Below are positions 9,053-30,775 of a stretch of DNA of 64,000 nucleotides, in pieces. A program made the translations under genes and the position numbers. Every line of letters starts with the position of its first letter. Positions within the stretch are counted from its first letter, which is position 1. The notes under the pieces were generated by a model. It was not told the DNA's origin. It did not search any database and saw only the letters and a list, made by a program, of their open reading frames with translations. Source of the stretch: Anderseniella sp. Alg231-50 (lineage in GTDB: Bacteria; Pseudomonadota; Alphaproteobacteria; Rhizobiales; Aestuariivirgaceae); the NCBI RefSeq assembly GCF_900149695.1, contig NZ_LT703006.1, forward strand, positions 248,001 through 312,000. The letters are read 5' to 3'.

Positions 9053-9934
9053 CTAGAGTTTGTAGACCCGCTGCGCGGTGTCATGAAAAATTGCTTTCTG
9101 GTCCGCCTTGGACAGGCCCGAAGCGCCCTTTTTGAAAGCGCTCACCAGGCCTGCATAGCTGGTCCAGAGTTTCTCGATCGGATAATTGGAGCCGAACAAA
9201 CAGCGTTCAGCACCGAATATTTCAACCGTGTCGGTCAGTAGGGTCTTGATGTGATCAGCATCATTGCGATGAATGAACGTGCCGAAGGCCGACAGTTTCG
9301 AAACCACGTTGGGTTCGTTCGCCAGCCGCTTCATACCGTTGCGCCAGGCTTCCACACCTTTGTCAGACAAGTCTTCCAGCATGCCGGCATGCTGCAGAAC
9401 GAAGGTTACATCCGGACAGGCCCGGGCCAGTTTGGCCGCATCCTTCATCTGACCGGTAAACACCTGCAGGTCAAATGACCAGCCATAGTCCGCCAGCTTT
9501 GCGACATTGTTCTGCACCTTCGGGTCGGCGGGCAGATCAGGCCGCGAGGCAAACCGGTACATCGGCTCCTCGTGCCAGTGAAACTGCTGCCGGATGCCGC
9601 GCATCAGCGAATTGACTTTCAGTTTTTCAAGCTGCGGGCGCACGTCGTCCACGGTGAAATCCGCATAGCCGACGATGCCATGCGGCCAACCGGAGCGATC
9701 CGCCACCGCCTGCACCCAGGCGGCTTCATCGGCAAACCAGTTTGGCGCCCAGTTGGCCTGTACATAAACCGACTTAGTGATGCCCGATCCCTTGATGTCA
9801 TCGAGGAATTCCTCGATCAGGTAATCGCGCATGATTGCCTTGTAGGGGCCGAATATGCGCGGCTGCTCCGGACCCAGCAGCCAGGGCAGATCGGCCTGCC
9901 GCCAGATGTGGTGATGGGCGTCGATGATTGTCAT
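9053..9934 (-). CDS. Amidohydrolase family 2 (TIM-barrel lactonase-type)
   Basis: A 293-aa amidohydrolase-2 (COG3618) protein. It opens with the metal-site motif IIDAHHHIWRQADLPWL and has the family segments around TFVLQHAG and LFGSNYPIEKLW, where the terminal metal Asp is here replaced by Asn/Tyr context and needs checking. The family includes L-fuconolactonase, L-rhamnono-lactonase and 2-pyrone-4,6-dicarbaxylate lactonase. The ATG begins directly after the stop of the VWA gene (TAG-ATG), so translation is coupled. The substrate is unknown. Confidence 0.83.
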   Translation of the reverse strand: MTIIDAHHHIWRQADLPWLLGPEQPRIFGPYKAIMRDYLIEEFLDDIKGSGITKSVYVQANWAPNWFADEAAWVQAVADRSGWPHGIVGYADFTVDDVRPQLEKLKVNSLMRGIRQQFHWHEEPMYRFASRPDLPADPKVQNNVAKLADYGWSFDLQVFTGQMKDAAKLARACPDVTFVLQHAGMLEDLSDKGVEAWRNGMKRLANEPNVVSKLSAFGTFIHRNDADHIKTLLTDTVEIFGAERCLFGSNYPIEKLWTSYAGLVSAFKKGASGLSKADQKAIFHDTAQRVYKL

Positions 9935-11050
9935 CTATGCAGCCTCCTGCCTGAGGGAAAGAACGCGCTCGCACAGCGCGCTCACCGAGCTGCCGTCTTC
10001 AATCGAATCCAGGTATGGCAAAATAGCCTGCATGGCCGCTGTTTCGGGCCGGTATCCGGCATCGCCCGCCAGCGGCGTGAGCCAGATCAGCTTCCACGAC
10101 AGGCGCGACAGCTTTTCAACCGCGTCGACCAGGGTCGCGTGATCGCCGCGTTCCAGCCCATCCGACAGGGTCAGTACGGCCGCGCCCCGGGTGAAACCGG
10201 CAAACCGGGGAATGTCCAGGAATGCCTGCAGCGCATCGCCCAGCCGGGTGCCGCCGTCCCAATCCGCGACGATGCCGGAAACAAGGTTCAGGGCCTGCGC
10301 CCGGTTGCGCACTTTCATGGCGCGGGTGACCCGCGTCAGCCTTGTGCCGAGAGTAAAAATCTCAATGCGCTGGCCGGCCTGCGCCAGGGCGTGGGCAAAG
10401 CGCAAGTAGCTGTCCGTCTGGTCCTTCATGGAACCGGACACGTCAATCAGCAGCACGATCCGGCGCTGGCGCAGCTTGCGCCGCAGCTTGGGAAGCTCAA
10501 TCACCTCGCCGTCGCGCTGCACCGCCTGGCGAAACACCTTGCGCATGTTCCAGCCATCTCCCTTGTTGGCGGCGGCGCGCCGGTAGGACCTGCGCACCGG
10601 CAACCGCTCGCGCGCCACTCTGCGGAAGCGCCGCAGGGCTTCAATTTCGTCGACACCTGCAAACTGGCGCGTCGACAGCACCTCGTCGCCCGTGGCTTCA
10701 CCGCCTGCTTCATTAAGTTCGTCGGGCTCCGGCGGATCACCATCGCCTGCTGCTTCCTCGCCGACGAGAATTTCATCCTCGTCGGGTCCCGATGCCGGCA
10801 CCGGGATCGACTGGCCCAGGAACTTCATGCGAAACAGCGCATCGAATTCGGGGCGCCGTTCCGGCGGCGGCGCAAACATGGCGCGGCCCGCCTGCAATAT
10901 ATCGCCCATATCACGCGGCCCCAGCAGGCCCACTGCCTCGACGAAGCCCATGGTCTGTTCCGGCGCGACGGAAAACCCGTTCTCGCGCAGCAGGGATGCA
11001 AACTCGACAAACGGTTCAGCCGCGCGCGGCAATGGCTGGGTGATGCTCAT
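9935..11050 (-). CDS. VWA-domain protein, CoxE-like
   Basis: A 371-aa protein with a C-terminal von Willebrand A-type domain. The MIDAS motif DVSGSMKDQTDSY is at about residues 205-217, TLGTRLTRVT follows, and LSDGLERGD supplies the later metal contact. The N-terminal half, with a long acidic linker (SGPDEDEILVGEEAAGDGD), is typical of CoxE proteins. CoxE acts with the MoxR-like ATPase CoxD in assembling the active site of molybdenum hydroxylases such as CO dehydrogenase. It overlaps the upstream MoxR gene by 4 bp (ATGA), so the two are made together. Confidence 0.88.
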   Translation of the reverse strand: MSITQPLPRAAEPFVEFASLLRENGFSVAPEQTMGFVEAVGLLGPRDMGDILQAGRAMFAPPPERRPEFDALFRMKFLGQSIPVPASGPDEDEILVGEEAAGDGDPPEPDELNEAGGEATGDEVLSTRQFAGVDEIEALRRFRRVARERLPVRRSYRRAAANKGDGWNMRKVFRQAVQRDGEVIELPKLRRKLRQRRIVLLIDVSGSMKDQTDSYLRFAHALAQAGQRIEIFTLGTRLTRVTRAMKVRNRAQALNLVSGIVADWDGGTRLGDALQAFLDIPRFAGFTRGAAVLTLSDGLERGDHATLVDAVEKLSRLSWKLIWLTPLAGDAGYRPETAAMQAILPYLDSIEDGSSVSALCERVLSLRQEAA

Positions 11051-11928
11051 GCCGCCGTCCCCGTCACCAGTTGGTCGAGCCGGTCATGCACGAAATTGAG
11101 ATCGTCCTGGTCCTTCAGCGCCACGCCGATGGCGCGCTTGAACGCGTCAGGCCATTGCGCACCCTGTGACTGCAGCAGCGTCGCGGCTTCTGCCCACTCA
11201 ACCGTTTCGGCGACACCCGGCGGCTTGGTCAGCGGTTCTGCCCGCAACCGGCCCACGGCAGCCACGACCCGGTCGGCGGTATCACGCGCCACCGAGCTTG
11301 CCCGCATCATGACGATCTCGGCTTCACGCAACGCATCCGGATAGTCGATCCAGTGATACACACAACGCCGGCGCAGCGCTTCGTGCAGTTCGCGCGTCCG
11401 GTTGGAGGTCAGCACCACCACCGGACGCTGGTCCGCACGCACCGTGCCGCGTTCGGGGATCGAAATCTGGAAATCCGACAGAAATTCCAGCAAGAACGCT
11501 TCGAATTCATGGTCCGACCTGTCGATCTCGTCGATCAGCAGCAGGGCATTGCCACCGGACTGCAGCGCGTCCAGCATCGGACGCGCGATCAGGAAGTCGT
11601 CCTTGTAGATATTGACATATTCATCGCCGGCCTGCCGGATCGCCAGCATCTGGCGCGGATAATTCCATTCATAAAGAGCTGCCCCGGCATCGATGCCTTC
11701 ATAGCATTGCAGCCGGATCAGCCGCCTGCCCAGGATCGATGACAGCGCCTTTGCCGCCTCGGTCTTGCCGACGCCCGGTGCGCCTTCCAGCAGCAGCGGC
11801 TTGCCCAGCGCCAGCGCCAGGTAGGCGGCCGTCGACAACCCTTCATCCGACAGGTACTGCGCGCCCTGCAAAGCTTCGTGAAGCTCCGGCGGGTTGGAAA
11901 TCCCTGCTATGGTCGGGTTGACGGGCAT
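11047..11928 (-). CDS. MoxR-family AAA+ ATPase, CoxD-like
   Basis: A 293-aa MoxR-type AAA+ ATPase. Walker A is GAPGVGKTEAAKA near residue 50 and Walker B is ALLLIDEIDRSDHEFE near residue 135. The sensor segment VVLTSNRTRELHEALRRRC follows, as expected. MoxR ATPases work with VWA proteins as cofactor-insertion chaperones; here the VWA partner is the next gene. This pair, beside a molybdenum hydroxylase, resembles coxD-coxE. The gene starts 20 bp after the inner end of the 301-bp palindromic element, which separates it from the large-subunit genes. Confidence 0.9.
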   Translation of the reverse strand: MPVNPTIAGISNPPELHEALQGAQYLSDEGLSTAAYLALALGKPLLLEGAPGVGKTEAAKALSSILGRRLIRLQCYEGIDAGAALYEWNYPRQMLAIRQAGDEYVNIYKDDFLIARPMLDALQSGGNALLLIDEIDRSDHEFEAFLLEFLSDFQISIPERGTVRADQRPVVVLTSNRTRELHEALRRRCVYHWIDYPDALREAEIVMMRASSVARDTADRVVAAVGRLRAEPLTKPPGVAETVEWAEAATLLQSQGAQWPDAFKRAIGVALKDQDDLNFVHDRLDQLVTGTAA

Positions 11929-11947: not shown

Positions 11948-12248
11948 TAGAGCGCTATGAGGTTAAATTGATGCATTTGACCGCGGCGATTTTGGTCACT
12001 GGCTAGGCGGATTGCACGCCGTGGTGTAGCCCCACCACAAGTGCGATCCAACGACGCCAGAGGGCAAAATCGCCCGGCCCTTGCACTAATGTCTTCAACA
12101 TCCTGGTTCTCCTCGGGGTGGGGAAAATCGGTCCATCGGCGTCGTTGCGCCGCTTGCCCGATGCACAGCATCGCGCTGCGCGACGCGCCTAGCCGAGTGA
12201 ACCGATTTTCCGCCATCAAATGCATCAATTTAACCTCATAGCGCTCTA
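11948..12248. repeat. 301-bp structured palindromic element (MITE-like)
   Basis: Two perfect 33-bp inverted arms, 11948-11980 and 12216-12248, both starting outward with TAGAGCGCTATG, bound the only sizeable gene-free gap of the minus-strand train. Pairing continues inward, with GGCTAGGCG (12001) facing CGCCTAGCC (12186) and CAACGACGCC (12049) facing GGCGTCGTTG (12138). Side hairpins branch off, such as GTGGTG/CACCAC (12021-12038) and GATGC-ACA-GCATC (12160-12172). A 93-codon open frame on the minus strand follows the repeat and is not taken as a gene. No target-site duplication is obvious. The outermost TAG serves as stop codon of the gene to its right. Confidence 0.75.
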
Positions 12249-13268
12249 TCGCTGGCCCTGCGGCTGGGCGCCGCCATTGGCCTTTATGCCGCGCAGCACC
12301 TTTTCAGGCGTGATCGGCAACTCGTCTATACGCACGCCCACGGCATTGAACACCGCATTGGCGACTGCAGGCAGCACCGGGTTGGCGCACATTTCCCCCG
12401 GTCCCTTGCCGCCGTAAGGACCATCCGGTGCAGGCCGTTCGAGGATAGCAATATCGTGCGGGGCAATGTCTCCGGGTCCCGGCATCACGTATTGGTTGAA
12501 GTCAGTCGGACCATGTGATCGTTCCGGGTAATAAGGCTCTGTTGTTTCCCACAAGGCATGGCTCATGCCCATCCAGGCACCGCCGACCAGCTGTTGCTCA
12601 ACCATGCGCGGGTTGAGCGCCCTGCCGACCTCATAGGCCGAGTTCATCTGCTTGACGTCAACCTCGCCGGTTTCATCATCGACCTCGATGTCCACGACGA
12701 GTGCGGCGTGGGCATAACACGATACCGGTGTCATCTCGCCGGTCTCGGGGTCCACATCCGACATCGGAATCAGGAAGATGCCGCGTCCCGACACGGTCTT
12801 GCCCTGCTTGAACTGGGCCGCGCCGCAGGCCTCGCCTGTCGATATGGACCTGGACGGTGCGCCGCGCACGAAGATATTGCCCTTGCCGTCCGTCTCCAGG
12901 TCGGCTGCATTGACTTCAAGCTCTTCGGCCGCTGCCTCAAGCATCACCGAACGGGCTTCCTTGGCTGCCTGTATCACCGCATTGCCGACACGGTGCGTGC
13001 CGCGCGAGGCAAACGAGCCCATGCAGTGCGGGCCGGTGTCGCTGTCGGCAGTGTCCACATAGACATCCTCGACCGGGACGCCGAGGGTTTCCGCCGCAAT
13101 CTGGCGAGTCACCTGTTTCATGCCCTGGCCCAGGTCGATGGAGGACAGCGCGACAGCAAACTTGCCGTCCGGATTGGAGTGCACCAGCGCCTGGCTCGGA
13201 TCACCGCCGAGGTTCATGCCGATCGGGTAATTGATGGAGGCAAAACCCCTGCCCTTGTGAATGCTCAT
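12246..13268 (-). CDS. Molybdenum hydroxylase large subunit, C-terminal part (separate gene)
   Basis: A 340-aa protein equal to the second Moco-binding half of a xanthine-dehydrogenase-family large subunit. It begins at the conserved segment RGFASINYPIGMN and has the motifs SSIDLGQGMKQVTRQIAAE and GSFASRGTHRVGNAV. PYGGKGPGEMCANP near the end carries the catalytic Glu of the GxGE motif. The ATG has a perfect AGGAGG site eight bases upstream, formed by the last Arg codons of the preceding gene, and only 2 nt separate the two genes. This makes it a real separate gene. Its stop TAG is the terminal triplet of the 301-bp element. A divided large subunit is known from nicotinate dehydrogenase (NdhL/NdhM). 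Confidence 0.85.
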   Translation of the reverse strand: MSIHKGRGFASINYPIGMNLGGDPSQALVHSNPDGKFAVALSSIDLGQGMKQVTRQIAAETLGVPVEDVYVDTADSDTGPHCMGSFASRGTHRVGNAVIQAAKEARSVMLEAAAEELEVNAADLETDGKGNIFVRGAPSRSISTGEACGAAQFKQGKTVSGRGIFLIPMSDVDPETGEMTPVSCYAHAALVVDIEVDDETGEVDVKQMNSAYEVGRALNPRMVEQQLVGGAWMGMSHALWETTEPYYPERSHGPTDFNQYVMPGPGDIAPHDIAILERPAPDGPYGGKGPGEMCANPVLPAVANAVFNAVGVRIDELPITPEKVLRGIKANGGAQPQGQR

Positions 13269-13270
13269 GA

Positions 13271-15040
13271 TCAGCGCCTCCTGAAACCGGAATTGGATGC
13301 GAAACGACTGTAGCCGGGCCGGTTGACCGGACGTGCCGACGGCGGCGGTGTGATTTCTGACGGCGGGGCTGCGGGTGGTGATGCGGCAGGCGCCGGTGCC
13401 GGTGCTGCCGGCGGCGGGGTTTGCGCAGGCGCCGGCTGATAGGCAGGCGCGGCTGCCGGATGGGCATAGGCCGGTTGCTCGGCCGCAGGTTGTGGGGCTG
13501 CGGGTGGCGGCGACGCAGGCGGCGGTGTCGTATAGGCAGCAGGAGTCGGTGCAGGCGTGGAAGGTGCAATAGTGCGGGTCTGGCCGCCGCTGCCACGCCC
13601 GGCCCGGCGGTCACCGATCTTGCCGTCTTCATCGGTCACGGTGTGCGGGATTTTGGCTCGCTCGCCACCACCCCCGACCATCGACGATGCCTGTTTGAAC
13701 TCATCCCGGATCGGCCAGTTGGCCTTTTCCGCCGCCACTTGCGCGCACTCGATCAGCGCACAGTTCTTGGCTTCGCGGCGATGGGCCTTCATGTCCCCGT
13801 CACGATAGGCATTCAGAATCCGGAACTCGACCGGGTTCATGCCGACCTCGTGCGCGATCTTGTCCATCTGGCTTTCAATGGCAAAATCCACGCCCGTCAC
13901 ACCGAAGCCGCGCATGGCGGTCGCCGGTGTCCGGTTGGTGAACACGCAGAACACATCCGACTTCACATTGGGAATATGGTACGGCCCGGGCAGATGCGCC
14001 GTACCCTTGATGATGGCGTAGCTCGACAACCGCGTGTAAGCACCTGAATCGAAATACCCGGTGAACTGGCGAGCAATTATGTGCCCGTCATTCATCACCC
14101 CGTCCTTCAGGTACCAGCGCTCACCGCCGCGCGGTGCGCCCACCTGCATTTCTTCTTCCCGGTCCCATACGAAACGGCACGGCTTGCCGGTCAGCATGCA
14201 GGCCAGGATCGCCATCGGCTCGACCAGGCTGTCGACTTTTCCGCCAAAGCCGCCACCCACCGTGCCACCGATGAAGTGCAGCCGGTTGGAACTGACATTG
14301 AGCAGCTTGGCCGCCGTGCCCAGCGAGAAGAACAGGGCTTGCGTCGAGGTGTAGCAGACAAACCGGTCATTGGTTTCAGGCGCCGCGATGGCCCCGTTGG
14401 TCTCAATCGGCGCCTGTTCGATGGGCGACATCTGATACCGCCCCTCGACAATCCTGTCAGCCTGGGCAAAGGCCGTTTCCACATCGCCATAGCGCAGCTT
14501 CTGGTGATCATACTTGTCGTGATAATCAAACGTGTTGTTGGGATAGACGTCGTTCACCACCGGTGCCTCAGGCTTCAGCGCCTCTTCCACGTCGAGCACA
14601 TGCGGCAGCACTTCCCAGTCCACCCTGACGGCGGCAACAGCATCGCGGGCCTGCCGGTCCGAAGCTGCAATAATCGCAAGTACGGGTTCACCGATGTAAC
14701 TCACCTTCTTCGACGACAGCAGCGGCTCGTCATCGCGCCCGAAGTTCAAAAGGCTCAACAGCGTATTGAAGTTGTTCGGCACGTCCTCCGGGCGAATGAT
14801 CCTCACCACTCCCGGCATGTTTTCAGCTTGTGAATAGTCCACGGACCGGATGCGGGCGTGATGATGCGGACTGCGCACGCAGCGAATTTGCAGCAGGCCC
14901 TCAAACAGATGGTCATCAAAGTATGGCGACCGGCCGGTGACATGGCCCAGCGCATCCTGGCGCTGGGTCCCCTTGCCGATCTCGTTGAGATCGTCGTCGC
15001 GTTCATTGGCAAACAGCTCTTTACGGAATTCCACGGTCAT
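13271..15040 (-). CDS. Molybdenum hydroxylase large subunit, N-terminal part with Pro/Ala-rich tail
   Basis: A 589-aa protein whose first 470 residues match the N-terminal half of xanthine-dehydrogenase-type large subunits. Motifs include GRSPYFDDH, GGTVGGGFGGKVD (Moco pterin contact) and TAMRGFGVTGVDFAIESQMD. It has the AMRGFG-type segment of xanthine-dehydrogenase-like enzymes and lacks the AYxCSFR active-site loop of form I CO dehydrogenase, so CO is not the expected substrate. From about residue 477 a 113-residue tail follows, very rich in Pro, Ala and Gln and ending in Arg-Arg-Arg. Such a tail is not part of the family and falls where the two halves would normally be joined. The partner half is encoded 2 nt downstream. 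Confidence 0.87.
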   Translation of the reverse strand: MTVEFRKELFANERDDDLNEIGKGTQRQDALGHVTGRSPYFDDHLFEGLLQIRCVRSPHHHARIRSVDYSQAENMPGVVRIIRPEDVPNNFNTLLSLLNFGRDDEPLLSSKKVSYIGEPVLAIIAASDRQARDAVAAVRVDWEVLPHVLDVEEALKPEAPVVNDVYPNNTFDYHDKYDHQKLRYGDVETAFAQADRIVEGRYQMSPIEQAPIETNGAIAAPETNDRFVCYTSTQALFFSLGTAAKLLNVSSNRLHFIGGTVGGGFGGKVDSLVEPMAILACMLTGKPCRFVWDREEEMQVGAPRGGERWYLKDGVMNDGHIIARQFTGYFDSGAYTRLSSYAIIKGTAHLPGPYHIPNVKSDVFCVFTNRTPATAMRGFGVTGVDFAIESQMDKIAHEVGMNPVEFRILNAYRDGDMKAHRREAKNCALIECAQVAAEKANWPIRDEFKQASSMVGGGGERAKIPHTVTDEDGKIGDRRAGRGSGGQTRTIAPSTPAPTPAAYTTPPPASPPPAAPQPAAEQPAYAHPAAAPAYQPAPAQTPPPAAPAPAPAASPPAAPPSEITPPPSARPVNRPGYSRFASNSGFRRR

Positions 15041-15055
15041 GGGGGTTATGCTTCC

Positions 15056-15541
15056 TTATGCGCTGCGCCGTCCGGCACCGTTTTGCGCGGCGTCGAGAAT
15101 GGCATCGATAATGGGTTCGTAGCCGGTGCACCGGCATATATTGCCGGAGATCGCTTCGACGACCTCATCACGGCTCGGGCTCGGATTGCGGTCCAGCAGG
15201 GCCTTGGCGGCCATCAGCATGCCGGACGAGCAGAATCCGCACTGGGCAGCGAAATGCCGCATGAACGCGTCCTGCAGCGGATGCAGACCAGCGCCTTCTG
15301 CAAGCCCGCCGGTGCTGTTCAGAGACCTGCCTTCAACCGTTTCCGCCAGCGTCAGGCAACTCAGGTGCGGCTCACCGTCAATCAGCACCGTGCAGGCTCC
15401 GCAGGTGCCCTGCCCGCAACCGTATTTCGGCGACAGGTCGCCTACCCCGCGCCGCAGGACGTCCAGCAGGTTCTGCCCGTCTTCCACGAACACCGCCTTG
15501 CTTTCGCCATTGAGGGTAAATTGTACCGGTTTCTTGCTCAT
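15056..15541 (-). CDS. 2Fe-2S subunit of molybdenum hydroxylase (CoxS/XdhC-like)
   Basis: A 161-aa electron-transfer subunit. The N-terminal plant-type ferredoxin cluster uses Cys42, Cys47, Cys50 and Cys62 (GCGQGTCGACTV and LSCLTLAE). The second cluster, in the helical domain, uses CGFC and CRC (ISGNICRCTGYEPI). Length and order of the motifs are standard. It passes electrons from the Moco site to the FAD subunit encoded 6 nt upstream. Confidence 0.93.
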   Translation of the reverse strand: MSKKPVQFTLNGESKAVFVEDGQNLLDVLRRGVGDLSPKYGCGQGTCGACTVLIDGEPHLSCLTLAETVEGRSLNSTGGLAEGAGLHPLQDAFMRHFAAQCGFCSSGMLMAAKALLDRNPSPSRDEVVEAISGNICRCTGYEPIIDAILDAAQNGAGRRSA

Positions 15542-15547
15542 TGGCTG

Positions 15548-16351
15548 CTACCCTTCCAGCAGTGCGCGCTTGAGGTGAACGGGAGCCACTTCGCTGCGAT
15601 ACCAGGACGACGCAATCGCATCCGTCGGCGGTTTAACACCGCTGGTCGCAGCCGCCAGTGCATTGGCGATGCCCGCTTCATCCAGCGAGGCACCCTCCAG
15701 TGCCTGCTCAACCGCGGTGACGCGCATCGGCGCAGGCCCCATTGAGGAATAGGCTATGCGGGCACCTGAAATCCGGCCACCGGACTGCGGCACCCAGGCT
15801 GCTATCGTCATCAGCGATACGCCCTTCGGTTTCACCCGGCTGACCTTCTTGAACCTGAACACGCCCGACTGCGGCCGGACGATGGAAACCGATGCGACCA
15901 GCGCGCGCGGTTCACGTCCCCGGTCACGCAGGAAATCGGTCAGCGCGGAACTCTGCCCGCCGGCAAGCGTCACCTGGCAATCGAGCACCAGCAGCGCTGC
16001 CGTCATGTCACCATACGGGTGCTCGGCGAACAGGTTGCCGCCGACCGTCGCCATATTGCGGATGGCAGGCCCGCCAACTGCACGCGCCACCGGGTGCAGG
16101 AAGTCAAGGTCACGGCTGGCCAGTATCTGGGCCATTGTCACCCCGGCGCCGATGACCAGGCGGTCGCCCTGCGGCTGTACCTGCTTGAGCGCAGGGTCAT
16201 TGGCCAGCACTATGGTGCTGAATGACTGATCACCTTCATTGACCGCCCGCATGATCAAGGTGCCGCCGCCCATGAACCGTGCCGCCCGGTCCCCGGACAG
16301 GGCAGACGCTGCTTCTGCAGAACTGGCAAATGTCTTGACGCTGATACTCAT
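15548..16351 (-). CDS. FAD-binding subunit of molybdenum hydroxylase (CoxM-like)
   Basis: A 267-aa FAD-binding protein of the CO dehydrogenase medium-subunit family. FMGGGTLIMRAVNEGD is close to the first FAD loop of the family. The second loop, normally TxGG, is present in IRNMATVGGNLFAEHPYGDM. The C-terminal CO_deh_flav_C region follows. It completes the three-component enzyme with the 2Fe-2S subunit and the split large subunit. It lies 21 bp after the second SRPBCC gene. Confidence 0.9.
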   Translation of the reverse strand: MSISVKTFASSAEAASALSGDRAARFMGGGTLIMRAVNEGDQSFSTIVLANDPALKQVQPQGDRLVIGAGVTMAQILASRDLDFLHPVARAVGGPAIRNMATVGGNLFAEHPYGDMTAALLVLDCQVTLAGGQSSALTDFLRDRGREPRALVASVSIVRPQSGVFRFKKVSRVKPKGVSLMTIAAWVPQSGGRISGARIAYSSMGPAPMRVTAVEQALEGASLDEAGIANALAAATSGVKPPTDAIASSWYRSEVAPVHLKRALLEG

Positions 16352-16372: not shown

Positions 16373-16816
16373 TCAGGCCGCCACGCCCATATGACTTCGA
16401 ATGGCCTCAAAGCCCGCTTCGTAAATGTCGCTTCCAACCAGTTTCTGCAACTGGGATTCCTCGCCCGCCGGCGTGGAGAAACTGCCTTCCCACTGCCAGA
16501 ACGTGCGGTCGCCATCGGTCACCGGAAACAGCCGGACATGGCTGACATAGTTGAACAACGGCACCGGCGTATCGAGCAGGCAGTAGCTGTAGGCGGCATC
16601 GATGTCCGACAGGGTCATCAACTGTTCGCGCAGCAATGACCCGTCCTGCAGGTGAAACTTGCGGATACAGCCGACAATGTCGGACGCCCGTCCACGCTCA
16701 ATCTCGCTGTCTGCCACCGCCGGATGCCAGCGGTCATGTCCGTTGAAGTCGCGCAACACATCCCACACCGCGTCAATCGGTGCGTCCAGTATCGTGCTTT
16801 TCAAGACCTTGACCAT
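16373..16816 (-). CDS. SRPBCC (START-like) family protein, copy 2
   Basis: A 147-aa protein of the SRPBCC/polyketide-cyclase superfamily, with the N-terminal AxxxVWDVLRDFNGHDRWHPAV pattern of the START-like helix-grip fold. It resembles the protein of the next upstream gene throughout (RDFNG..RWHP, GCIRKFHLQDGS, REQLMTLSD), so the two are tandem duplicates. In Cox clusters, CoxG is an SRPBCC protein linked to membrane attachment of the enzyme; a similar role, or ligand binding, is possible. Six bases separate the two copies. Confidence 0.85.
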   Translation of the reverse strand: MVKVLKSTILDAPIDAVWDVLRDFNGHDRWHPAVADSEIERGRASDIVGCIRKFHLQDGSLLREQLMTLSDIDAAYSYCLLDTPVPLFNYVSHVRLFPVTDGDRTFWQWEGSFSTPAGEESQLQKLVGSDIYEAGFEAIRSHMGVAA

Positions 16817-16822
16817 GAAACC

Positions 16823-17260
16823 CTATCCGCCGAAATGCCGCTTCAGGGCATCGAATCCACCCTGAAAAACATTGGTTGCAATTCCGTTGGACACATCCGC
16901 CTCGACGTCCGGAGAGCAGTCGAACTCCGCCGACCATTCGACAAAGCACCGGTCACCGTCGCTGACCGGGGTCAGTCGCAGGGTCGCAACATAGTTTTCG
17001 ATCGGCATCGGGCTTTCCAGAATGGAATAGGTGCAGAACGTGTCGTAGTCGCTCAGCGCCAGCAGTTGCTCACGGATCTGGTCGCCGTTCTGCAGGCGGA
17101 AGTTGCGGATGCAGCCCACCTTGTCGGACGGTTCGCCGTTCTCGATCTGGCTGTCGGCAATGCGCGGATGCCAGCGCGGCAGGCCGTTGAAATCGCGTAC
17201 CCGTTCCCAGACCTTGGTGGCCGGGGCGGCAATGACGCTGGATACATATACTCGTGCCAT
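16823..17260 (-). CDS. SRPBCC (START-like) family protein, copy 1
   Basis: A 145-aa START-like protein, paralogous to the following gene: both have RDFNG..RWHP, GCIRNFRLQNGDQIREQLLALSD and a C-terminal GGFDALKRHFGG-type end. The family binds hydrophobic ligands or helps assemble partner proteins; no catalytic residues can be assigned. It starts 12 bp after the flotillin-like gene and belongs to the same transcription unit. Confidence 0.85.
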   Translation of the reverse strand: MARVYVSSVIAAPATKVWERVRDFNGLPRWHPRIADSQIENGEPSDKVGCIRNFRLQNGDQIREQLLALSDYDTFCTYSILESPMPIENYVATLRLTPVSDGDRCFVEWSAEFDCSPDVEADVSNGIATNVFQGGFDALKRHFGG

Positions 17261-17272
17261 GTCTGTTGCCGC

Positions 17273-20200
17273 CTATTTCTTAGCCTTGGTATCGTCGTCA
17301 CCGGAAGACTTGCCGGTGTCGCCCGACGATCCGCCATCGTCGGATTTGCCGTCACCGGAACTGCGCCCGGCTTCCTTGGCAATACGCTGCATGTCGGATG
17401 CTTCACGGATCAGGCCGCCCTGCTTCGACAGGTTGGACCCGTCAATGCCGATGTCGGCCAGCAGGCTGTCAACCATGGGTGCCTGCACGCGATAGCGAAG
17501 TGCTGAATTGATCACCTCGTCGGTCGGGGTTCCCTTGCCCCCTCCGCCGCCATCGCCGCCGGAGCCACCTGAACCTCCGCCGGTGTTCATGCCATCCAGC
17601 TGCATGATGCGGATGTCCTGGATTTTCTCCATCGGCTTGACCGATGCCGCCACGATGCCCTCGACCTTGTCGAGCAGTTTGCGGCGGAACAGCCCGAAGC
17701 GGGCCTCGTCGGACAGCACATTCTCTGCCTCGTACAGCAGCTTCTGCGCTTCCGCCTCGACCGCCGCCCGGATCTGGTCGGCTTCCGCAGCAATGCGGGC
17801 TTCGGCGGCTGCCTTTTCCGCCATCACCACGTCTACGCTGCGGCGGCGGTTGGCCTCCTCGGTTTCGCGGGTTGTCTGAACCCGCTCTTCGGCTTCTGCC
17901 GCCCTTGCACGGGCCATATCGGCTTCTGCCTGGGCCGCCGACTGTTCCAGCGACTTCCTGTAGAGATCGACGGCCTTCTCCATTTCGGCGGATTCGACCT
18001 CACGCTCGCGGTTGACCTCCAGCTTGCGCCGTTCGGTTTCGTGACCGATGCGGGCCTCATCAAGCCCGCGTTCAGAGGCAATACGGGAGCGCTCGATGTC
18101 TTCACGAGAGGCAATTTCTGCTTCACGAAGCGCCTGCATGCGGGCAACTTCCAGCTGCTCCAGCGACCGCTTGCGCTCCAGTCGGGCCGCATCCAGCGCC
18201 TGCTCCCGCTCAACATCAGTACGGTCCACATCGCGCTGGGCGGCAATTTCAGCCTGCTTGATCCTGGCCTCGGCACCGGCACGTTCCGCCTTCGCCTCGG
18301 CAACAGCCACAACACGCTGCTCGTCGGCCTGCTCGATGATTGTCTTGCGGTCAATGTCCACCAGGTCGCGGGCTTTGGACGCTTCAATGCGCTCCTTGTC
18401 CACGTTCAGTTCAACATTGATACGTTCACGCTCGACCTTGTCACGCTTGGAAATCTCGCGGGTCTCAACAGCTTCATCGCGTCCGATTTCCCGGTCGCGA
18501 ATGTCCTGTTCCGCTGCAATGCGTTCAGCCTTGACCGTCTTCTCCTGGGCCACGCGGGCTGCTTCAATTGCCTCGTTTGCGGCAATCTGCGCCTGGTCGA
18601 GCGCCTTGTTGCGTTCGATCTCGAGATTGCGGATTTCCTCATCACGTGAAATCTGGTCGCGCGAGGTTTCCTTCTCTTTCTCGATCGTCACCTTGTCGAC
18701 AACCCGCCGTGACTCAGCCTGGGTGCTTTCAACAGCCTCCTGCCGCTGGATCTCACGCACCCTGATTTCGGTTTCCGCAACAATGCGTTCTGCATCCACC
18801 TTCTTCTTCTGGGCAATGCGCGCAGCATCTGTGGCTTCCTGTGCCGAGACTTCACGCAGTGTGGTTTCTTCCGTGCGCGCAATCCGCTCAGCATCAATTT
18901 TTGCCTGCTGGGCAAGCCTTGCCGTCTCGGTCACCTCGGATGCACTGATCTGGGCCGTGTCAACCGCCCGGTTGCGGGCGATCTCGCGTTCGCGCAGGTC
19001 CTGTTCGAAGGCGATACGCTCTGCGGCGATCTTCTTCTCCTGCGCGATACGGGCCGCTTCAGTTGCCTCTGCGGAGGCAATCTCGGCTTCCTGAATGGCT
19101 TGTGTCCGGCGAATATCGCGCGCCTTGGTCGCCTGCTCGCTGTCGATACGTTCCACAGCCAGTTTCATTTCCTGGGCGATACGGGTTGCTTCGACCGCTT
19201 CACGAGCCGCAATTTCGGCTTCGTCGATGGCCCGGTTGCGTTCTATCTGCAGCGCCCGCAGGCGTTCTTCCTGGCCGATGCGTGATACTTCCGTGGACTC
19301 ACGCGCCACGATATCAGCCTCTTCCAGCGTCCGGCGCTGCTCGATTTCCAGCGCGCGGGTTGCCTGGTCGGATGCAATCCGCTCAGCGGCAAGTTTCTTC
19401 TCGCGCGCAATCCGGGCAGCTTCGGTCGCCTGCTGAGCCGCAATCTCGGCTTCTTCCAGCGCCTTCTGCCGGTCAATTTCGAGAGCGCGGATTTGCTTGT
19501 CTGACGCGATCCGGTCGCTATTGACCTCTGTTTCCTGGGCGATGCGCAATTTTTCAGTTGCTTCGCGAGACGCAATCGTGGCCGCTTCCACCGCTTGGCC
19601 GCGGGCAATTTCGCGGCGTTGGGTATCTTCTTCCTTCGCGATACGGGCTTCGGATACCGTGCGTTCCTGTTCAATGCGCGCACGTTCCGTCGCTTCAGTT
19701 GCCGCAATTTGGGCGTGCTCGATGGACTGGCGCCGCTCAATTTCTTGGGCTTCAGTCTGCTGTTCATTGGAAATCCGGGCTTCACTGACGTGACGTTCCT
19801 GCTCGATACGGGCACGTTCGGTCTTTTCCCGTGCGCCGATCTCGGCGGCTTCCACCGCCTGCTGGCGTTCGATTTCCTGCTGCCGGATATCGCGTTCAGA
19901 CGCAATCCGGGCTTCTGAGATCTGCCGTTCCTGCGCAATGCGCTGAGTCTCGATGGTTTCGCGGGCGGTAATCTGCGCACGCTCGGCATCGGTTTCCCGC
20001 TCGGCACGTTCACGCGCCAGTTCGGCACGCTGCTGGGCGCGGCGGAACTCGACATCGCGTTCCTGGGTCAGACGCGCTTCTTCGCTCTCACGTTCGATTT
20101 CCAGCGCCTGCTTCTCAGCTTCCAGGTTTCGTGAGCGAATGCGGATCATCGAATCCTGTTCGATGTCATTGCGCACCTTGCGCTTGGCCTCGATGTCCTC

Positions 20201-20824
20201 GATCAGCCGGGTCAGACCGTCTGCATCAAACCGGTTGGACGGGTTGAAGTACTCCAGCCCGGTCTGGTCGATATCCTTGATGGCAACAGATTCCAGTTCA
20301 AGGCCGTTCAGGTCGAGGCCGTCCTGCGCCACCTGCGCCACACGCTCGACATAAGAACCGCGCTGCTCGTGCATCTCCTCCATGGACATTTCCGACGCAA
20401 CCGACCGCAGGGCTGAAATGAACTTGCCTGACAACAGCTCATGCAGCCTGCCCTGTTCCAGGGTTCGCCTGCCCAGTGTGGATGCGGCTATGGAAACGGA
20501 CTGGCGGGACGGGCGCACCCGGACATAGAATTCAGCTTCCACATCGACACGCATCCGGTCCTTGGTGATCAGCGCCTGTTCCTTCTCGCGCACGACTTCG
20601 AGAGGCAGCGTGTTCATGTTGACAGGCGTTATGTCGTGGATGATCGGCCACACGAAAGCGCCGCCATCAATCACCACTTTTTCTCCCAGGAAACCGGTCC
20701 TGACAAAGGCCACTTCCTTGGTGGACCGGCGATACAGCCAGTTCATCACCCAGTAAATGATCGCTATGACGATAACCGCCAGAATGAGCCATAATATAAG
20801 CTGGCCAATCAGCTGTCCGGTCAT
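17273..20824 (-). CDS. Giant flotillin/YqiK-like membrane scaffold with 44-residue coiled-coil repeats
   Basis: An 1183-aa SPFH-domain protein, about twice the usual flotillin/YqiK length. Residues 5-30 are one hydrophobic anchor. Residues 33-205 match the band-7/flotillin domain (KEVAFVRTGFLGEKVVIDGGAFVWP). A very long charged coiled coil runs from about 210 to 1040. From 289 to 838 it consists of about 13 tandem units starting with a pattern like EATEAARIAQE. Eleven units are 44 residues (4x11) and two are 33 (3x11), so the period is 11 residues. The flotillin C-terminal segment (VKPMEKIQDIRIMQLDGMN) follows, then a Gly-rich stretch and an acidic, Ser/Gly-rich tail. It heads the Mo-hydroxylase train, behind a GGAGGG ribosome-binding site. 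Confidence 0.9.
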   Translation of the reverse strand: MTGQLIGQLILWLILAVIVIAIIYWVMNWLYRRSTKEVAFVRTGFLGEKVVIDGGAFVWPIIHDITPVNMNTLPLEVVREKEQALITKDRMRVDVEAEFYVRVRPSRQSVSIAASTLGRRTLEQGRLHELLSGKFISALRSVASEMSMEEMHEQRGSYVERVAQVAQDGLDLNGLELESVAIKDIDQTGLEYFNPSNRFDADGLTRLIEDIEAKRKVRNDIEQDSMIRIRSRNLEAEKQALEIERESEEARLTQERDVEFRRAQQRAELARERAERETDAERAQITARETIETQRIAQERQISEARIASERDIRQQEIERQQAVEAAEIGAREKTERARIEQERHVSEARISNEQQTEAQEIERRQSIEHAQIAATEATERARIEQERTVSEARIAKEEDTQRREIARGQAVEAATIASREATEKLRIAQETEVNSDRIASDKQIRALEIDRQKALEEAEIAAQQATEAARIAREKKLAAERIASDQATRALEIEQRRTLEEADIVARESTEVSRIGQEERLRALQIERNRAIDEAEIAAREAVEATRIAQEMKLAVERIDSEQATKARDIRRTQAIQEAEIASAEATEAARIAQEKKIAAERIAFEQDLREREIARNRAVDTAQISASEVTETARLAQQAKIDAERIARTEETTLREVSAQEATDAARIAQKKKVDAERIVAETEIRVREIQRQEAVESTQAESRRVVDKVTIEKEKETSRDQISRDEEIRNLEIERNKALDQAQIAANEAIEAARVAQEKTVKAERIAAEQDIRDREIGRDEAVETREISKRDKVERERINVELNVDKERIEASKARDLVDIDRKTIIEQADEQRVVAVAEAKAERAGAEARIKQAEIAAQRDVDRTDVEREQALDAARLERKRSLEQLEVARMQALREAEIASREDIERSRIASERGLDEARIGHETERRKLEVNREREVESAEMEKAVDLYRKSLEQSAAQAEADMARARAAEAEERVQTTRETEEANRRRSVDVVMAEKAAAEARIAAEADQIRAAVEAEAQKLLYEAENVLSDEARFGLFRRKLLDKVEGIVAASVKPMEKIQDIRIMQLDGMNTGGGSGGSGGDGGGGGKGTPTDEVINSALRYRVQAPMVDSLLADIGIDGSNLSKQGGLIREASDMQRIAKEAGRSSGDGKSDDGGSSGDTGKSSGDDDTKAKK

Positions 20825-20876: not shown

Positions 20877-21710
20877 TCAGGCCATCTTTATCGATTTGAA
20901 AACCTTCGTCTGCTCCGTCAGGGCTGTCTCTGTCGGCAACCGTTCCATCGACGAGGCACCATAGAACCCATGGCAGTTACTGGTATTTTTCAACACGTAT
21001 TCAGCGTCATCAGGCATCGCCACCGGCCCGCCATGGACCAGCACGATAACATCCTTGTTGACTTTCAGAGCCGCTTCCGACCAGGCATCAACCTTGCCCG
21101 GCACATCCTCTAGCGTTTGCGCCGTTTCCGCGCCGATCGACCCGCCGGTGGTCAGGCCAAGATGGCAGACGATAATGTCGGCGCCTGCCTGCGCCATGGC
21201 CGCAGCATCATCCTCGCCGAACACATAAGGCGTGGTCAGCATGTCCTTCTGGTGCGCCTTGGCGATCATGTCGACCTCCAGCGAAAACGACATGCCGGTC
21301 TCTTCCAGGTTGGCCCGGAAGGTGCCGTCGATCAGCCCCACGGTCGGAAAATTCTGCACGCCGGAAAACCCGACCCGTTTGAGGTCATCCAGGAACACAT
21401 CCATCAGCCGGAACGGATCAGTGCCGTTCACGCCAGCCAGCACCGGTGTGTTGGTCGCCACCGGCAGCACCTCCGATGCCATTTCCATGACGATCTGGTT
21501 GGCATCCCCATAAGGCATGAGACCGGCAAGCGAACCGCGCCCCGCCATGCGGTAGCGGCCGGAATTGTAGATCACGATAAGATCGATACCGCCGGCTTCC
21601 TCGCATTTTGCCGACAGGCCCGTGCCGGCCCCACCGCCGACAATCGGCTCGCCGCGGTCAATCATGCCGCGAAATCTCTCAACAATAGCTGCACGTTCAA
21701 ACCGGGCCAT
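20877..21710 (-). CDS. PEP-hydrolase family TIM-barrel protein
   Basis: A 277-aa protein of the phosphoenolpyruvate hydrolase-like (PF09370) TIM-barrel family. It shows [44 protein letters not shown] near the N-terminus, [10 protein letters not shown] in the middle and [16 protein letters not shown] at the C-terminus. In many genomes this family is encoded beside Tm-1-like (UPF0261) proteins; here that gene is the immediate upstream neighbour, two bases away. The biochemical role of the pair is not established. Confidence 0.85.
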
Positions 21711-21712
21711 TC

Positions 21713-23897
<2,185 letters not shown>

Positions 23898-23905
<8 letters not shown>

Positions 23906-24704
23906 GTGTGAACCCGCCTCCCAGATACAGTTCCTGGACTTCCGGGTCGGCTTCGATCTCTTCCGGCTTGCCTTCCTTGAAGACACGACCGTTGTGCATC
24001 ATCGTGACACTTTCAGAGACCCGCAGGGCAACATCCATATCGTGCTCGATAATGATGTATCCCATGTGGCCGGGAAGATTGTTGAGGATGTCGATCAGGT
24101 CACGCCTCTCGGTTGGCGACAGGCCAGCGGCAGGCTCATCAAACAGGATGAATCGCGGCGCACCGGCAAGCGCCAAAGCAATTTCAAGCTGGCGCTGCTG
24201 ACCATATGAGAGTTCCGACACAAGCGTGTCGCGCACATCTGTCAGGTGCACGGCCTCAATCAGATCGGCTGCGGAATGCATGAGCGCATCAGATCGTCCC
24301 GGACGGATCAGCGAGAACCGATTGCGCGACACACCGCGACAGGCAAGGTAGACATTGTCGATGACCGTCAAACCGCCGAACAACAGCGAAATCTGGTAGG
24401 TGCGGCGCAAGCCCCGGCGAATGCGATCATGCGGCGGAAACTTGGTGACGTCCTCGCCAAACATCCGGACAACCCCGGATGTCGGCAGGAAATCACCGGT
24501 TATGCAATTGAACAATGTGGTTTTGCCTGCGCCATTGGAGCCCAAAACGGCCCGGCGCTCGCCAGGTTTGACGGTCAGAGTGATGTCCTGCATGGCGGCA
24601 AGGGCGCCGAAAAATTTGCTGACACCGCGCAGTTCAAGCGCATTGGCAGTGCCCGTTGCCGACAACCGGCTGGCCATGGTGGATGTGGTTGCAGTGACGT
24701 TCAT
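23898..24704 (-). CDS. LivG-type ABC transporter ATPase
   Basis: A 268-aa ATPase of the branched-chain amino acid / amide uptake family. Walker A is [14 protein letters not shown], the signature [17 protein letters not shown], Walker [14 protein letters not shown] and the switch His is in [11 protein letters not shown]. The extra segment after Walker A with [18 protein letters not shown] is usual for LivG. Its start overlaps the end of the LivM gene by 4 bp (ATGA). It pairs with the LivF domain of the next gene to drive the importer. Confidence 0.93.
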
Positions 24705-25798
24705 ACCTCGTTGCCTCCACCTTTTTCACGGGTTTCGCCTGTCAGTCGGTCGGTCGAGTTCATCCGGTTGCGCCAACGCTCCCACAATCCGAGTATGCCG
24801 TCCGGCGACCAGAATACGATGACCAGAAAAACCAGACCGACAAGCAACTGAAAACGTTCGCCCGACAAGCCGATCGACACCATGAAATCCAGCGCGAAGG
24901 TTCTGAGCAACACGTAGATGATGGCTCCAATGAACGGACCGACAGGCCGCGCTAAGCCGCCGATAACCGCAATGATCAGGATATCTATGGCCGGTCCGAT
25001 CCCGGCCGTTCCCGGTGAGACCTGGCCGTTCAGCCATACCAGCAGGATGCCGGCAACGGCAGCGATGAAGCTGGCAAACACAAAGGCTGCGACGCGATGT
25101 GCGGTAACGTTGTAGCCAAGCGCTTCCATGCGCCTGGCATTGTCACGCACTCCCTGCAGCGCGAGGCCGAACGGCGCACGCGAGACGTACAATACCGACA
25201 GATAGGCAACCGCCGCCCAGAACAGCGTCAGGTAGTAAAACGGGATCGGCTGGCGCCAGTCGACCCCGAACAGTTCCGGCGGCTTGACCCCGTTGAATCC
25301 GGAAAACCCGTTGAACAAGACATAGTTCTGGCGAGTGAAGTAGAAGAACGCAGATGCGATCGCCAGCGTGATCATGATGGTGTAGATGCCCTCGGTCCGC
25401 ACTGCCAGTGCACCTGTCAGTGTACCGAATCCGGTTGCAATGATCAGGGCAATCGGAAGTGCGACCCACCACGGCCAGCCCAGTGAAATCTGGGTAATGG
25501 CGCTGTCACCGAAGATGGCCAGCATATAGGCCGCACATGCTGCCACCGACATCTGGACTAAAGATACCATGCCACCATAGCCGCCGAGAAACATCAGGCT
25601 CAGCGCAATCATGCCGAGTATAAGTGCCCAGCCGAAAACCTGGAACAGCATGAACGGTCCGACCAGAACCGGGAGCAACAGCATGAATGCGCCGACGAAC
25701 CAGTACGGTGTCGGAATTGAACTCAATGACAGTCCGGACCACCACGATTGCGGCTTGCTGTTGATCGGCGCTGTGTTTGTGTTTTCGGTCACGGCCAT
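24701..25798 (-). CDS. LivM-type ABC transporter permease
   Basis: A 365-aa inner-membrane permease with about ten hydrophobic segments and the LivM family's coupling region around GYNVTAHRVAAFVFASFIAAVAGILLVW. Pro- and Gly-rich helices such as IGLARPVGPFIGAIIYVLLRTF-type follow near the C-terminus. The N-terminus has a 40-residue cytoplasmic extension before the first membrane helix. It is 6 bp downstream of the LivH-like gene. Confidence 0.92.
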   Translation of the reverse strand: MAVTENTNTAPINSKPQSWWSGLSLSSIPTPYWFVGAFMLLLPVLVGPFMLFQVFGWALILGMIALSLMFLGGYGGMVSLVQMSVAACAAYMLAIFGDSAITQISLGWPWWVALPIALIIATGFGTLTGALAVRTEGIYTIMITLAIASAFFYFTRQNYVLFNGFSGFNGVKPPELFGVDWRQPIPFYYLTLFWAAVAYLSVLYVSRAPFGLALQGVRDNARRMEALGYNVTAHRVAAFVFASFIAAVAGILLVWLNGQVSPGTAGIGPAIDILIIAVIGGLARPVGPFIGAIIYVLLRTFALDFMVSIGLSGERFQLLVGLVFLVIVFWSPDGILGLWERWRNRMNSTDRLTGETREKGGGNEV

Positions 25799-25804
25799 CG
25801 GCTT

Positions 25805-26818
25805 CTACCGCCTCTCGCCGAGCAGGCCCTGCGGCCTGAACGCCAGCACGATGACCATGATCAGGAAGGTCAGCACCACCGCGTAAGTCGGCATGTAAAC
25901 CGACCCGAACTGTTCCGCCAGCCCGATCAACAGCGCCCCCAGTGCAGCACCCGGGATCGATCCCATGCCGCCGACAATAACCACCACCAGGGAGGCCAGC
26001 AGGAAACGGGTGTCTTCACCCGGCGCCAGGGACTGGAACGTACCGCCCACGACGCCTGCAACACCGGCCAGGCCGGCTCCGAATGCGAACACCAGAACAA
26101 ACACCCGCTGGATGCGCACGCCGGTGGCAGACAGCATGTCACGGTCATCCACACCGGCGCGGATCAGCATGCCGACACGGGTCTTGTTGAGCGACAGCCA
26201 CATGGCAATGCCAATGACGATCGAGGCCAGCAGAATGACAATGCGGACAAACGGGTACTTCAGGAATACCGGATCACCACTGCTCTTTACCGCCGTTACA
26301 ATGGGCAGTTGAATGGGCCCCGACAGCCAGTCCGGTGTCAGTATCTGGTAGAAATCGCCGCCCCAGTACCACAGCATCAGGTCGGCCACGACAATGGAGA
26401 TGCCGATTGTCACCAGCGTCTGGCGCAAGTCCTCGCCCTCCATTCGCTGAAACACCAGCACCTGCAGCAGAACGCCCATGGCGCCGACAACCACAAACGC
26501 GACAATAAAGCTGAGCAGCCACCAGCCGGTGGTGTTGGCCACATCGTAACCGATATAGCCGCCTAGCAGGTACAATGAGCCATGCGCCAGGTTGACGTTC
26601 TTCATCAAACCGAAAATCAGCGTGAAGCCGCTTGCAACCAGGAAATACAGCGCACCGAGCGTGACGCCGTTGAACAGGGCGTTCAGAAAAATCTTCTTGC
26701 GCCCGAAGGTTGCGACAAACCCGGGTGGCCAGGGTGCGAAAATTGCCCAGATCAGAAAACAGACGGCCAGCACGATGATCAGCGACCAGTACGGATTGCG
26801 TGCCATGAAGTTCTTCAT
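25805..26818 (-). CDS. LivH-type ABC transporter permease
   Basis: A 337-aa permease. It has the LivH motif FNGVTLGALYFLVASGFTLIFGLMKNVNLAHGSLYLLGGY and the coupling segment SATGVRIQRVFVLVFAFGAGLAGVAG. The ATG at 26818, preceded by GGGGGA, is preferred over an upstream GTG. With the LivM gene it forms the membrane channel of the importer whose binding protein is encoded at 29.5-30.8 kb. Confidence 0.92.
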   Translation of the reverse strand: MKNFMARNPYWSLIIVLAVCFLIWAIFAPWPPGFVATFGRKKIFLNALFNGVTLGALYFLVASGFTLIFGLMKNVNLAHGSLYLLGGYIGYDVANTTGWWLLSFIVAFVVVGAMGVLLQVLVFQRMEGEDLRQTLVTIGISIVVADLMLWYWGGDFYQILTPDWLSGPIQLPIVTAVKSSGDPVFLKYPFVRIVILLASIVIGIAMWLSLNKTRVGMLIRAGVDDRDMLSATGVRIQRVFVLVFAFGAGLAGVAGVVGGTFQSLAPGEDTRFLLASLVVVIVGGMGSIPGAALGALLIGLAEQFGSVYMPTYAVVLTFLIMVIVLAFRPQGLLGERR

Positions 26819-27016
26819 GCCGTGTGTCCCCCGCAGCGGCACTCACCTGCCCGCAAGCCACTCCTGAACATGTGTCGCCCTGGTATGGTCAAAACGTATT
26901 CCTCCGTCCGGAAGTGTACATTGCACTACCAGATTCCCCACAATCATAGGAGCAGGTGCGCAGGAATGCATACCTGACAGTCTTATGGTCTTGTAATTGA
27001 TCGTAAATTTCCGCGT

Positions 27017-29527: not shown

Positions 29528-30775
29528 TCAGAACTTCTTGCATTCCGGCACATCGCGCGACGGCAAGCCGACTGACTTGAACACAGCCGGATCAATACCA
29601 AGCGTCTGGTTCACGTTCGGTACGATCTTGACCAGCTTGTTGACCAGGTTGCCATTTTCTTCAACCACTTCGGTGACGAAATTGGTGCCGATGGCCTGAC
29701 GATTACTGTCCAGCGTGATCTTGCCGTTCGGAGCATCAAGCTCCAGCGTCGCCAGACATTGCCGCAGTCCCTTGTGACCGTCGCCTAGTTCACCCTTCAC
29801 ATTGTCCATGCATATCTTCATGGCATTGAAGGCGTTGTAATATCCGGTCGCCATCAATGCCGGGCTCGGGAACCGTTTTTCCGGCGGGAAGGCGTCCTGG
29901 TATGCCTTCACGAAGGTCTGCCACTTCTCGTTGTCCCAGGTGTCTGCCTGCGGACCTGAACCTGGCGTCCCGATCAGGGCTTCCTTGGCCTTGCCCTTTG
30001 AAGACAGCACGGTACCGTCAATCATGATTGTGCCGCCGATCAGTTTGGCGTCACCACCGGCCTGCTGGTACTGATTGAGGAAGTTGACGGCATCACCGCC
30101 GCCCAGTCCAAGATAGATCGCATCCACATCGTCCGGCAGGGATGCGATGATCGAGGCAAAATCCTTGGTTCCCAGAGGCACCCACAGGCGCTCTGTGATT
30201 TCACCACCGGCACCACAGAACTCCAGCGCAAAGCCGAACACCTGCGTGTAGATGAAGGAGTAGTCTTCACCGATAGTGGCGACTTTCTTGTAGCCTTTTT
30301 CATTAAACACATATGATCCGAGACCAGCTGACCACTGCGCGCCGTCCATGTTGAAGCGGAAGAAGTTTTCCGATGGAGTGACGTAAGTGGTTTCCTGGGC
30401 ACCGGAGATACCGTTGATGAACGTTACCTGTGGCTGGGTCTTCGAGTAATCGCGGATAGCGATACCTTCCGAACCGGAAAGCGGACCGATGATGATATCG
30501 ACCTTGTCCTGCTCGACAAGTTTGCGGGCTGCACGAAGGGCGCTGTCCGGACTGGCGTCGGTGGCCCCGACGATAACCTCGATTTCACGTCCGCCGGCCA
30601 TGCCTTTGGCTTCCTTCATGGCAACTTCAAAGCCACGCTGGCCGTCTTCGCCAAGCACGGTGTAGGTTCCTTCAAGCGTCGCCATGAAACCGATCTTCAG
30701 CTTGTCAGCAGCCTGGGCCGACCCGGCTGCGAGAACCGCAGCGGCGGCAACAGTTGAAATTAGCAATTTGCGCAT
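29528..30775 (-). CDS. Periplasmic substrate-binding protein, Leu/Ile/Val-type (LivK family)
   Basis: A 415-aa type I periplasmic binding protein. Signal peptide residues 1-22 (cut after AQA). The mature domain begins DKLKIGFMATLEGTYTVLGEDGQRG, the first lobe of the family. The C-terminal segment holds Cys residues in KICMDNV, LRQCLAT and PECKKF. A GGGAGG site precedes the ATG. As first gene of the unit, it feeds the LivHMGF importer. Nothing in the binding lobes tells the ligand; branched-chain amino acids, amides and aromatic acids are all possible. Confidence 0.92.
   Translation of the reverse strand: MRKLLISTVAAAAVLAAGSAQAADKLKIGFMATLEGTYTVLGEDGQRGFEVAMKEAKGMAGGREIEVIVGATDASPDSALRAARKLVEQDKVDIIIGPLSGSEGIAIRDYSKTQPQVTFINGISGAQETTYVTPSENFFRFNMDGAQWSAGLGSYVFNEKGYKKVATIGEDYSFIYTQVFGFALEFCGAGGEITERLWVPLGTKDFASIIASLPDDVDAIYLGLGGGDAVNFLNQYQQAGGDAKLIGGTIMIDGTVLSSKGKAKEALIGTPGSGPQADTWDNEKWQTFVKAYQDAFPPEKRFPSPALMATGYYNAFNAMKICMDNVKGELGDGHKGLRQCLATLELDAPNGKITLDSNRQAIGTNFVTEVVEENGNLVNKLVKIVPNVNQTLGIDPAVFKSVGLPSRDVPECKKF

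Follow-up and report, generated by a model that had tools for sequence, protein, structure and literature searches.

Human flotillin forms a right-handed barrel of 44 helices, with a wall of 186 aa and a cage 22 nm tall (PMC11260169). Stomatin surrounds AQP1 and UT-B, an example of SPFH domes around transporters (PMC12407830), and for SPFH2 members an NfeD/YuaF partner has been reported (PMC2636767). The locus described here bears on what bacterial SPFH cages enclose, as one flotillin shares an invariant operon with a specific importer and with an enzyme that bears a candidate tag.

The window, by which we mean the whole stretch of 64,000 nucleotides that was analysed, encodes a flotillin of 1183 aa. 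Both the SPFH (Band_7) and the Flot C-terminal domains were matched, confirming the original prediction of a flotillin about twice as long as usual; the predicted coordinates are correct, and the gene lies on the minus strand (20824..17273). Its features are as follows.

17273..20824, minus strand: giant flotillin, 1183 aa (PF01145, 4e-16; PF15975, 1e-33)
20741..20812, minus strand: N-terminal hydrophobic membrane segment, residues ~5-28 (from the sequence; predicted helix 3-34)
20267..20713, minus strand: SPFH/Band_7 domain, residues 38-186 (Pfam match, E 4e-16)
18332..19981, minus strand: main array of 50 unbroken hendecads, residues 282-831 (periodicity and phase analysis)
18257..18331, minus strand: phase break of 25 residues (832-856), missing in a derived class of relatives
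17993..18256, minus strand: second array of 8 hendecads in a shifted register, residues 857-944
17444..17821, minus strand: Flot C-terminal domain, residues 1002-1127 (Pfam match, E 1e-33)

The protein scores 41 bits against the FloT equivalog NF058507, below the curated cut-off of 700. No NfeD/YuaF partner was found among the neighbouring genes checked, all of which have other Pfam identities, and PADLOC returned no match to a defence system. PDB matches of the flotillin to Roco proteins were taken as compositional. The same genome carries a second flotillin of ordinary length (~570 aa; G000:C3:203269-204891, L039), with no hendecad runs.

Self-identity of the giant flotillin peaks only at lags that are multiples of 11, with a maximum of 0.32 at lag 44, and the spectral power of I, L, V, M and F at the harmonics of 11 reaches up to 66, far above the shuffles (at most 10.6 in 100), which bears out the predicted hendecad periodicity. 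The main array (residues 282-831) is made up of eleven 44-residue and two 33-residue units. EIxR-type hendecads lie at residues 315, 359, 403, 447, 491, 524, 568, 612, 656, 689, 733, 777 and 821, spaced by ten 44-residue and two 33-residue steps, and these 13 positions agree with the 13 units of 44 or 33 residues originally proposed. The proposed extent (289-838) captured a real repeat but fell short of the array, which covers 282-831 and then eight further hendecads at 857-944. The 44-residue supercycle is general in the family, lag 44 ranking first in 67 of the 86 relatives. At the DNA level, the only tandem repeat in the array is one trivial 9-bp pair, and the array is therefore old.

The long helical region (residues 205-1040) has no proline in its 836 residues and, if straight, would extend for ~125 nm; an AlphaFold monomer has a near-continuous helix from 204 to 1031, predicted at low confidence (pLDDT 50-70). 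At hendecad position 4, 98% of units have I, L or V, as do 70% at position 10; Ala is found at positions 1, 2, 5 and 9. The hendecads, originally predicted to give a nearly straight or right-handed coiled coil, fit the human flotillin barrel, whose 44 helices are reported to be right-handed (PMC11260169). The 11-mer repeats and the very long continuous helix would also be expected if the array were no cage wall and instead lay on the membrane as an amphipathic helix, as in synuclein or perilipin, or formed filaments. We consider this improbable, since the hydrophobic positions line up in two ridges separated by 131 degrees, the one-face moment is low, 0.23 at the helical period, and solved flotillins are barrels (PMC11260169). 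Judged from the sequence, the two-ridge geometry suits helices packed between two neighbours better than an amphipathic helix lying on a membrane.

The original prediction placed the flotillin at the head of its operon, which is incorrect: two genes on the same strand sit 2-52 nt upstream. The operon runs from a Liv-type importer through LivF-UPF0261, a PEP-hydrolase-like TIM barrel, the flotillin, two SRPBCC proteins and a split Mo hydroxylase to MoxR and CoxE. Its genes, and two features of the hydroxylase, are listed below.

29528..30775, minus strand: LivJ-type substrate-binding protein (conserved in 56/60)
25805..26842, minus strand: LivH-type permease (conserved in relatives)
24701..25798, minus strand: LivM-type permease (conserved in relatives)
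23898..24704, minus strand: LivG-type ATPase (conserved in relatives)
21713..23986, minus strand: LivF-type ABC ATPase fused to UPF0261 (Tm-1-like; profile match)
20877..21710, minus strand: PEP_hydrolase-like TIM-barrel protein (PF09370)
16823..17260, minus strand: SRPBCC protein 1 (SRP1; PF10604)
16373..16816, minus strand: SRPBCC protein 2 (PF10604)
15548..16351, minus strand: FAD subunit of the Mo hydroxylase (Pfam match)
15056..15541, minus strand: 2Fe-2S subunit, eight cysteines in place (Pfam match and motif check)
13271..15040, minus strand: MoL1, first half of the Mo hydroxylase large subunit, with a GGGFGGK motif
13274..13684, minus strand: disordered Pro/Ala-rich tail of MoL1, residues 453-589 (disorder prediction)
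13274..13306, minus strand: MoL1 C-terminal peptide RFASNSGFRRR, candidate docking tag
12246..13268, minus strand: MoL2, second half of the large subunit, with the catalytic GKGPGE motif
11047..11928, minus strand: MoxR/CoxD-like AAA+ ATPase
9935..11050, minus strand: VWA CoxE-like protein
9053..9934, minus strand: Amidohydrolase 2

The enzyme belongs to the xanthine-oxidase family of Mo hydroxylases, with a GGxFGGK loop, a GxGE glutamate, two 2Fe-2S cysteine sets and an FAD subunit; the CoxL active-site loop AYRCSFR does not occur in the window hydroxylase. The large subunit is divided into two genes (12246-15040), the break falling between MoCoBD_1 and MoCoBD_2. Downstream genes of the amidohydrolase, metallo-hydrolase and isochorismatase types suggest aromatic or heteroaromatic ring cleavage. 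Two gene fusions were also observed. The LivF-UPF0261 fusion, kept across the operon family, includes one half of a plant Tm-1-like protein (UPF0261) and adjoins the TIM-barrel protein, which matches the other half. At the downstream end of the cluster, one gene joins a gluconolactonase-like (SGL) domain to an isochorismatase domain (6496-8103), and this fusion is kept in several relatives.

Scanning genome contigs yielded 80 loci from alphaproteobacteria and a few gammaproteobacteria, 60 of them with full flanks, and the same collinear operon was present in 60/60. Two even genome draws, 289 alphaproteobacterial and 397 phylum-wide, were chosen without selection on flotillin. In the first, five genomes had a close MoL1, at 61% identity or more, and these were exactly the five whose SPFH domains came closest, at 67% or more; MoL1 lay ~5 kb from the SPFH gene, and the flotillins were all giant, that of G335 (1541 aa) as judged from its open frame only. 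In the second, 12/12 genomes with MoL1 at 69% or above had an adjacent long flotillin and a tail. Taken together, the draws contained 15 distinct genomes with a close MoL1, 15/15 with a giant flotillin ~5 kb upstream. The predicted link to a Mo hydroxylase thus holds in all full loci and in both draws.

The hydroxylase is one partner of the flotillin, whereas the module of importer, UPF0261 and PEP-hydrolase is older and broader, and is also found with short flotillins and no Mo enzyme. Sister operons keep the importer, UPF0261, PEP-hydrolase and SRP1 with no Mo enzyme in the same operon, and their flotillins have 4-24 hendecads, compared with 29-70 beside the Mo enzyme. Their second SRPBCC protein is ~490 aa; in the two sister operons read fully, it is fused to a quinone-oxidoreductase-like domain (L028:13944-15533, L034:12568-14052). 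Conversely, the Mo operon core occurs in six genomes of a different family with no adjacent importer, UPF0261, PEP-hydrolase or flotillin, and two further genomes carry related split enzymes but lack a nearby flotillin; in five of these eight, no flotillin-like gene was found at E 1e-20. Flotillin genes were also seen on plasmids. On a Hoeflea plasmid (L030:7179-9626), a bacteriorhodopsin gene adjoins a flotillin gene, an arrangement similar to marine flotillin-associated rhodopsin clusters, and a ~505 aa flotillin is carried by many plasmids of Escherichia coli (of 326 plasmid matches, 232 are Escherichia records, and the majority of the 326 are conjugative).

MoL1 ends in a Pro/Ala linker and a conserved C-terminal peptide, RFSSxSGxRRR, in 83/83 flotillin-linked copies examined, and the tail, terminal peptide included, is predicted to be disordered. 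Within the peptide, R is found at -3 in 70/70, at -2 in 68/70 and at -1 in 70/70 copies, and G at -5 in 66/70, while the linker is very variable in both sequence and length (55-196 residues). The most divergent tail-bearing MoL1 (L033) ends in RISSMFRRGR. A DNA pattern scan found the tail pattern followed by a stop codon only once in the genome, in MoL1, and no other protein of the operon bears such a C-terminus. Nine MoL1 relatives with no flotillin gene beside them end at the point where the linker would start and have no peptide; six of them otherwise have the same Mo operon. The tail-less relatives share the split of the large subunit, which is therefore older than the tail. Tail-bearing MoL1 proteins are monophyletic (support weak, 0.55), and there was one gain of the tail, or one loss in the sister group, so its correlation with the flotillin amounts to a single evolutionary event. 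That the peptide persists behind a fast-changing linker is stronger evidence of selection than this correlation. The restriction of the tail to MoL1 beside a giant flotillin, which the original prediction did not include, is new circumstantial support for the scaffold or cage dedicated to the enzyme that was originally suggested.

The tail could instead dock the hydroxylase elsewhere, on acidic lipid, an SRPBCC protein or the importer, with the flotillin serving as an ordinary microdomain scaffold of the membrane patch. Lipid could be bound by the basic RRR at the terminus, and the importer, UPF0261 and PEP-hydrolase genes were gained along with the flotillin and the tail, so that any of them could be its partner. 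However, sister operons have the importer, UPF0261 and TIM-barrel genes yet no tailed protein, and SRP1 occurs in tail-less operons and therefore does not explain the tail alone. We regard docking elsewhere as a serious but minority possibility. Residues specific to the Mo-linked flotillin clade exist (e.g., L959, F1046, R1048), but no flotillin residue could be identified as a receptor for the tail, and an acidic pocket for its RRR was not evident. An encapsulin was rejected as the tail receptor, as the gene for its HK97-fold shell (PF04454) is not in the genome; control genomes were positive.

The array provides a clean natural experiment in coiled-coil evolution, with dozens of length changes and a helical phase that is nearly always conserved. 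Among 81 relatives placed on a tree, 30 different array lengths were found. Measured between two conserved anchors, arrays range from -42 to +8 hendecads relative to the window flotillin. In 63 of 89 measured relatives the difference is an exact multiple of 11; another 24 share a second phase, as would fit a lost phase break, and the remaining 2 could not be assigned reliably. The tree implies ~40 changes in array length, of which only two alter the length modulo 11, and we conclude that the helical phase is under selection. Selection thus keeps the helix in phase as its length drifts or adapts. With 30 lengths differing almost always by whole hendecads, and a weak correlation with linker length, the long array might be a mostly neutral expansion by unequal recombination, where selection rejects only phase-breaking changes and the flotillin functions as usual. 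Against this stands the separation in length: Mo-enzyme-linked flotillins have 29-70 hendecads in 79/79 operon copies, and sister and non-operon flotillins together have 0-24, so a long wall is maintained in the Mo-enzyme context. We regard neutral expansion as unlikely. The linker was considered as a ruler for wall height and rejected, its phylogeny-corrected correlation with array length being weak (r=0.25, p=0.04); given also the 2.4-fold range of array length among Mo-linked flotillins, no ruler or precise lumen size is implied.

The reading that we favor, at a probability of roughly 50%, is that the flotillin is anchored in the membrane, forms an extra-long wall and is dedicated to one pathway of uptake and oxidation, whose hydroxylase is docked by its tail. 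From the observed repeat, its phase-conserving length evolution, the conserved operon and the co-occurrence of tail and flotillin, we infer oligomerisation, a cage, docking and channelling. The N-terminal segment and SPFH domain would hold the flotillin in the inner membrane, where subunits may oligomerise into a ring or cage by analogy with human flotillin. Its wall would be one almost continuous hendecad helix (~205-1030), packed side by side through the two hydrophobic ridges. The Liv-type importer would sit in the membrane patch that is enclosed by the wall or lies next to it. The disordered linker and the RFSSxSGxRRR C-terminus would tether the hydroxylase to the flotillin, either inside the wall or along it, allowing imported substrate to be oxidised at its site of entry. 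MoxR and CoxE mature the enzyme in cox clusters, and here they presumably mature the Mo enzyme. Points against this mechanism are the single origin or loss of the tail, the variable array length, the low confidence of the helix prediction and the lack of an identified tail receptor on the flotillin; moreover, few bacterial cells would easily accommodate a wall of ~100 nm, and sister-operon flotillins manage without a Mo enzyme. A bolder version, which we hold only tentatively, is a new class of bacterial enzyme compartment, in which a flotillin cage standing on the membrane, up to ~100 nm tall, would surround the importer and capture the Mo hydroxylase by a C-terminal cargo peptide, its height evolving in 11-residue steps of three turns.

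The flotillin family itself is known; no paper found describes its expansion here, its invariant partnership or the candidate docking tag. A search made largely outside subscription journals returned no description of the operon and no paper containing both flotillin and SRPBCC. The human flotillin-1/2 cage (PDB 9bq2, 9l3g; PMC11260169) shares the SPFH domain and a long non-heptad helix, with a sequence match of 6e-10 over residues 39-393 of the giant flotillin. In contrast to it, the helical region here, known from sequence, comprises ~830 residues in regular hendecads and is accompanied by an N-terminal hydrophobic segment. Flotillin-associated rhodopsin clusters (PMC10308929), as described in the available part of that report, likewise tie a flotillin genetically to one membrane-linked function in marine bacteria; they differ in that the partner is a rhodopsin and the flotillin gene is 1,977 bp, and that part reports no Mo enzyme or cargo-like tail. 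Encapsulin cargo loading (PMC8346489) is similar in principle, with an enzyme bearing a conserved short C-terminal peptide beside a presumed scaffold gene, but the presumed host here is an SPFH protein and the docking is putative. The aerobic CO dehydrogenase cluster coxMSLDEFG has the same FAD, 2Fe-2S and Mo subunits, MoxR/CoxD, CoxE and SRPBCC proteins, whereas the present operon lacks AYRCSFR, splits the large subunit, encodes SRPBCC proteins of PF10604 rather than the CoxG family, and adds an importer and a flotillin.
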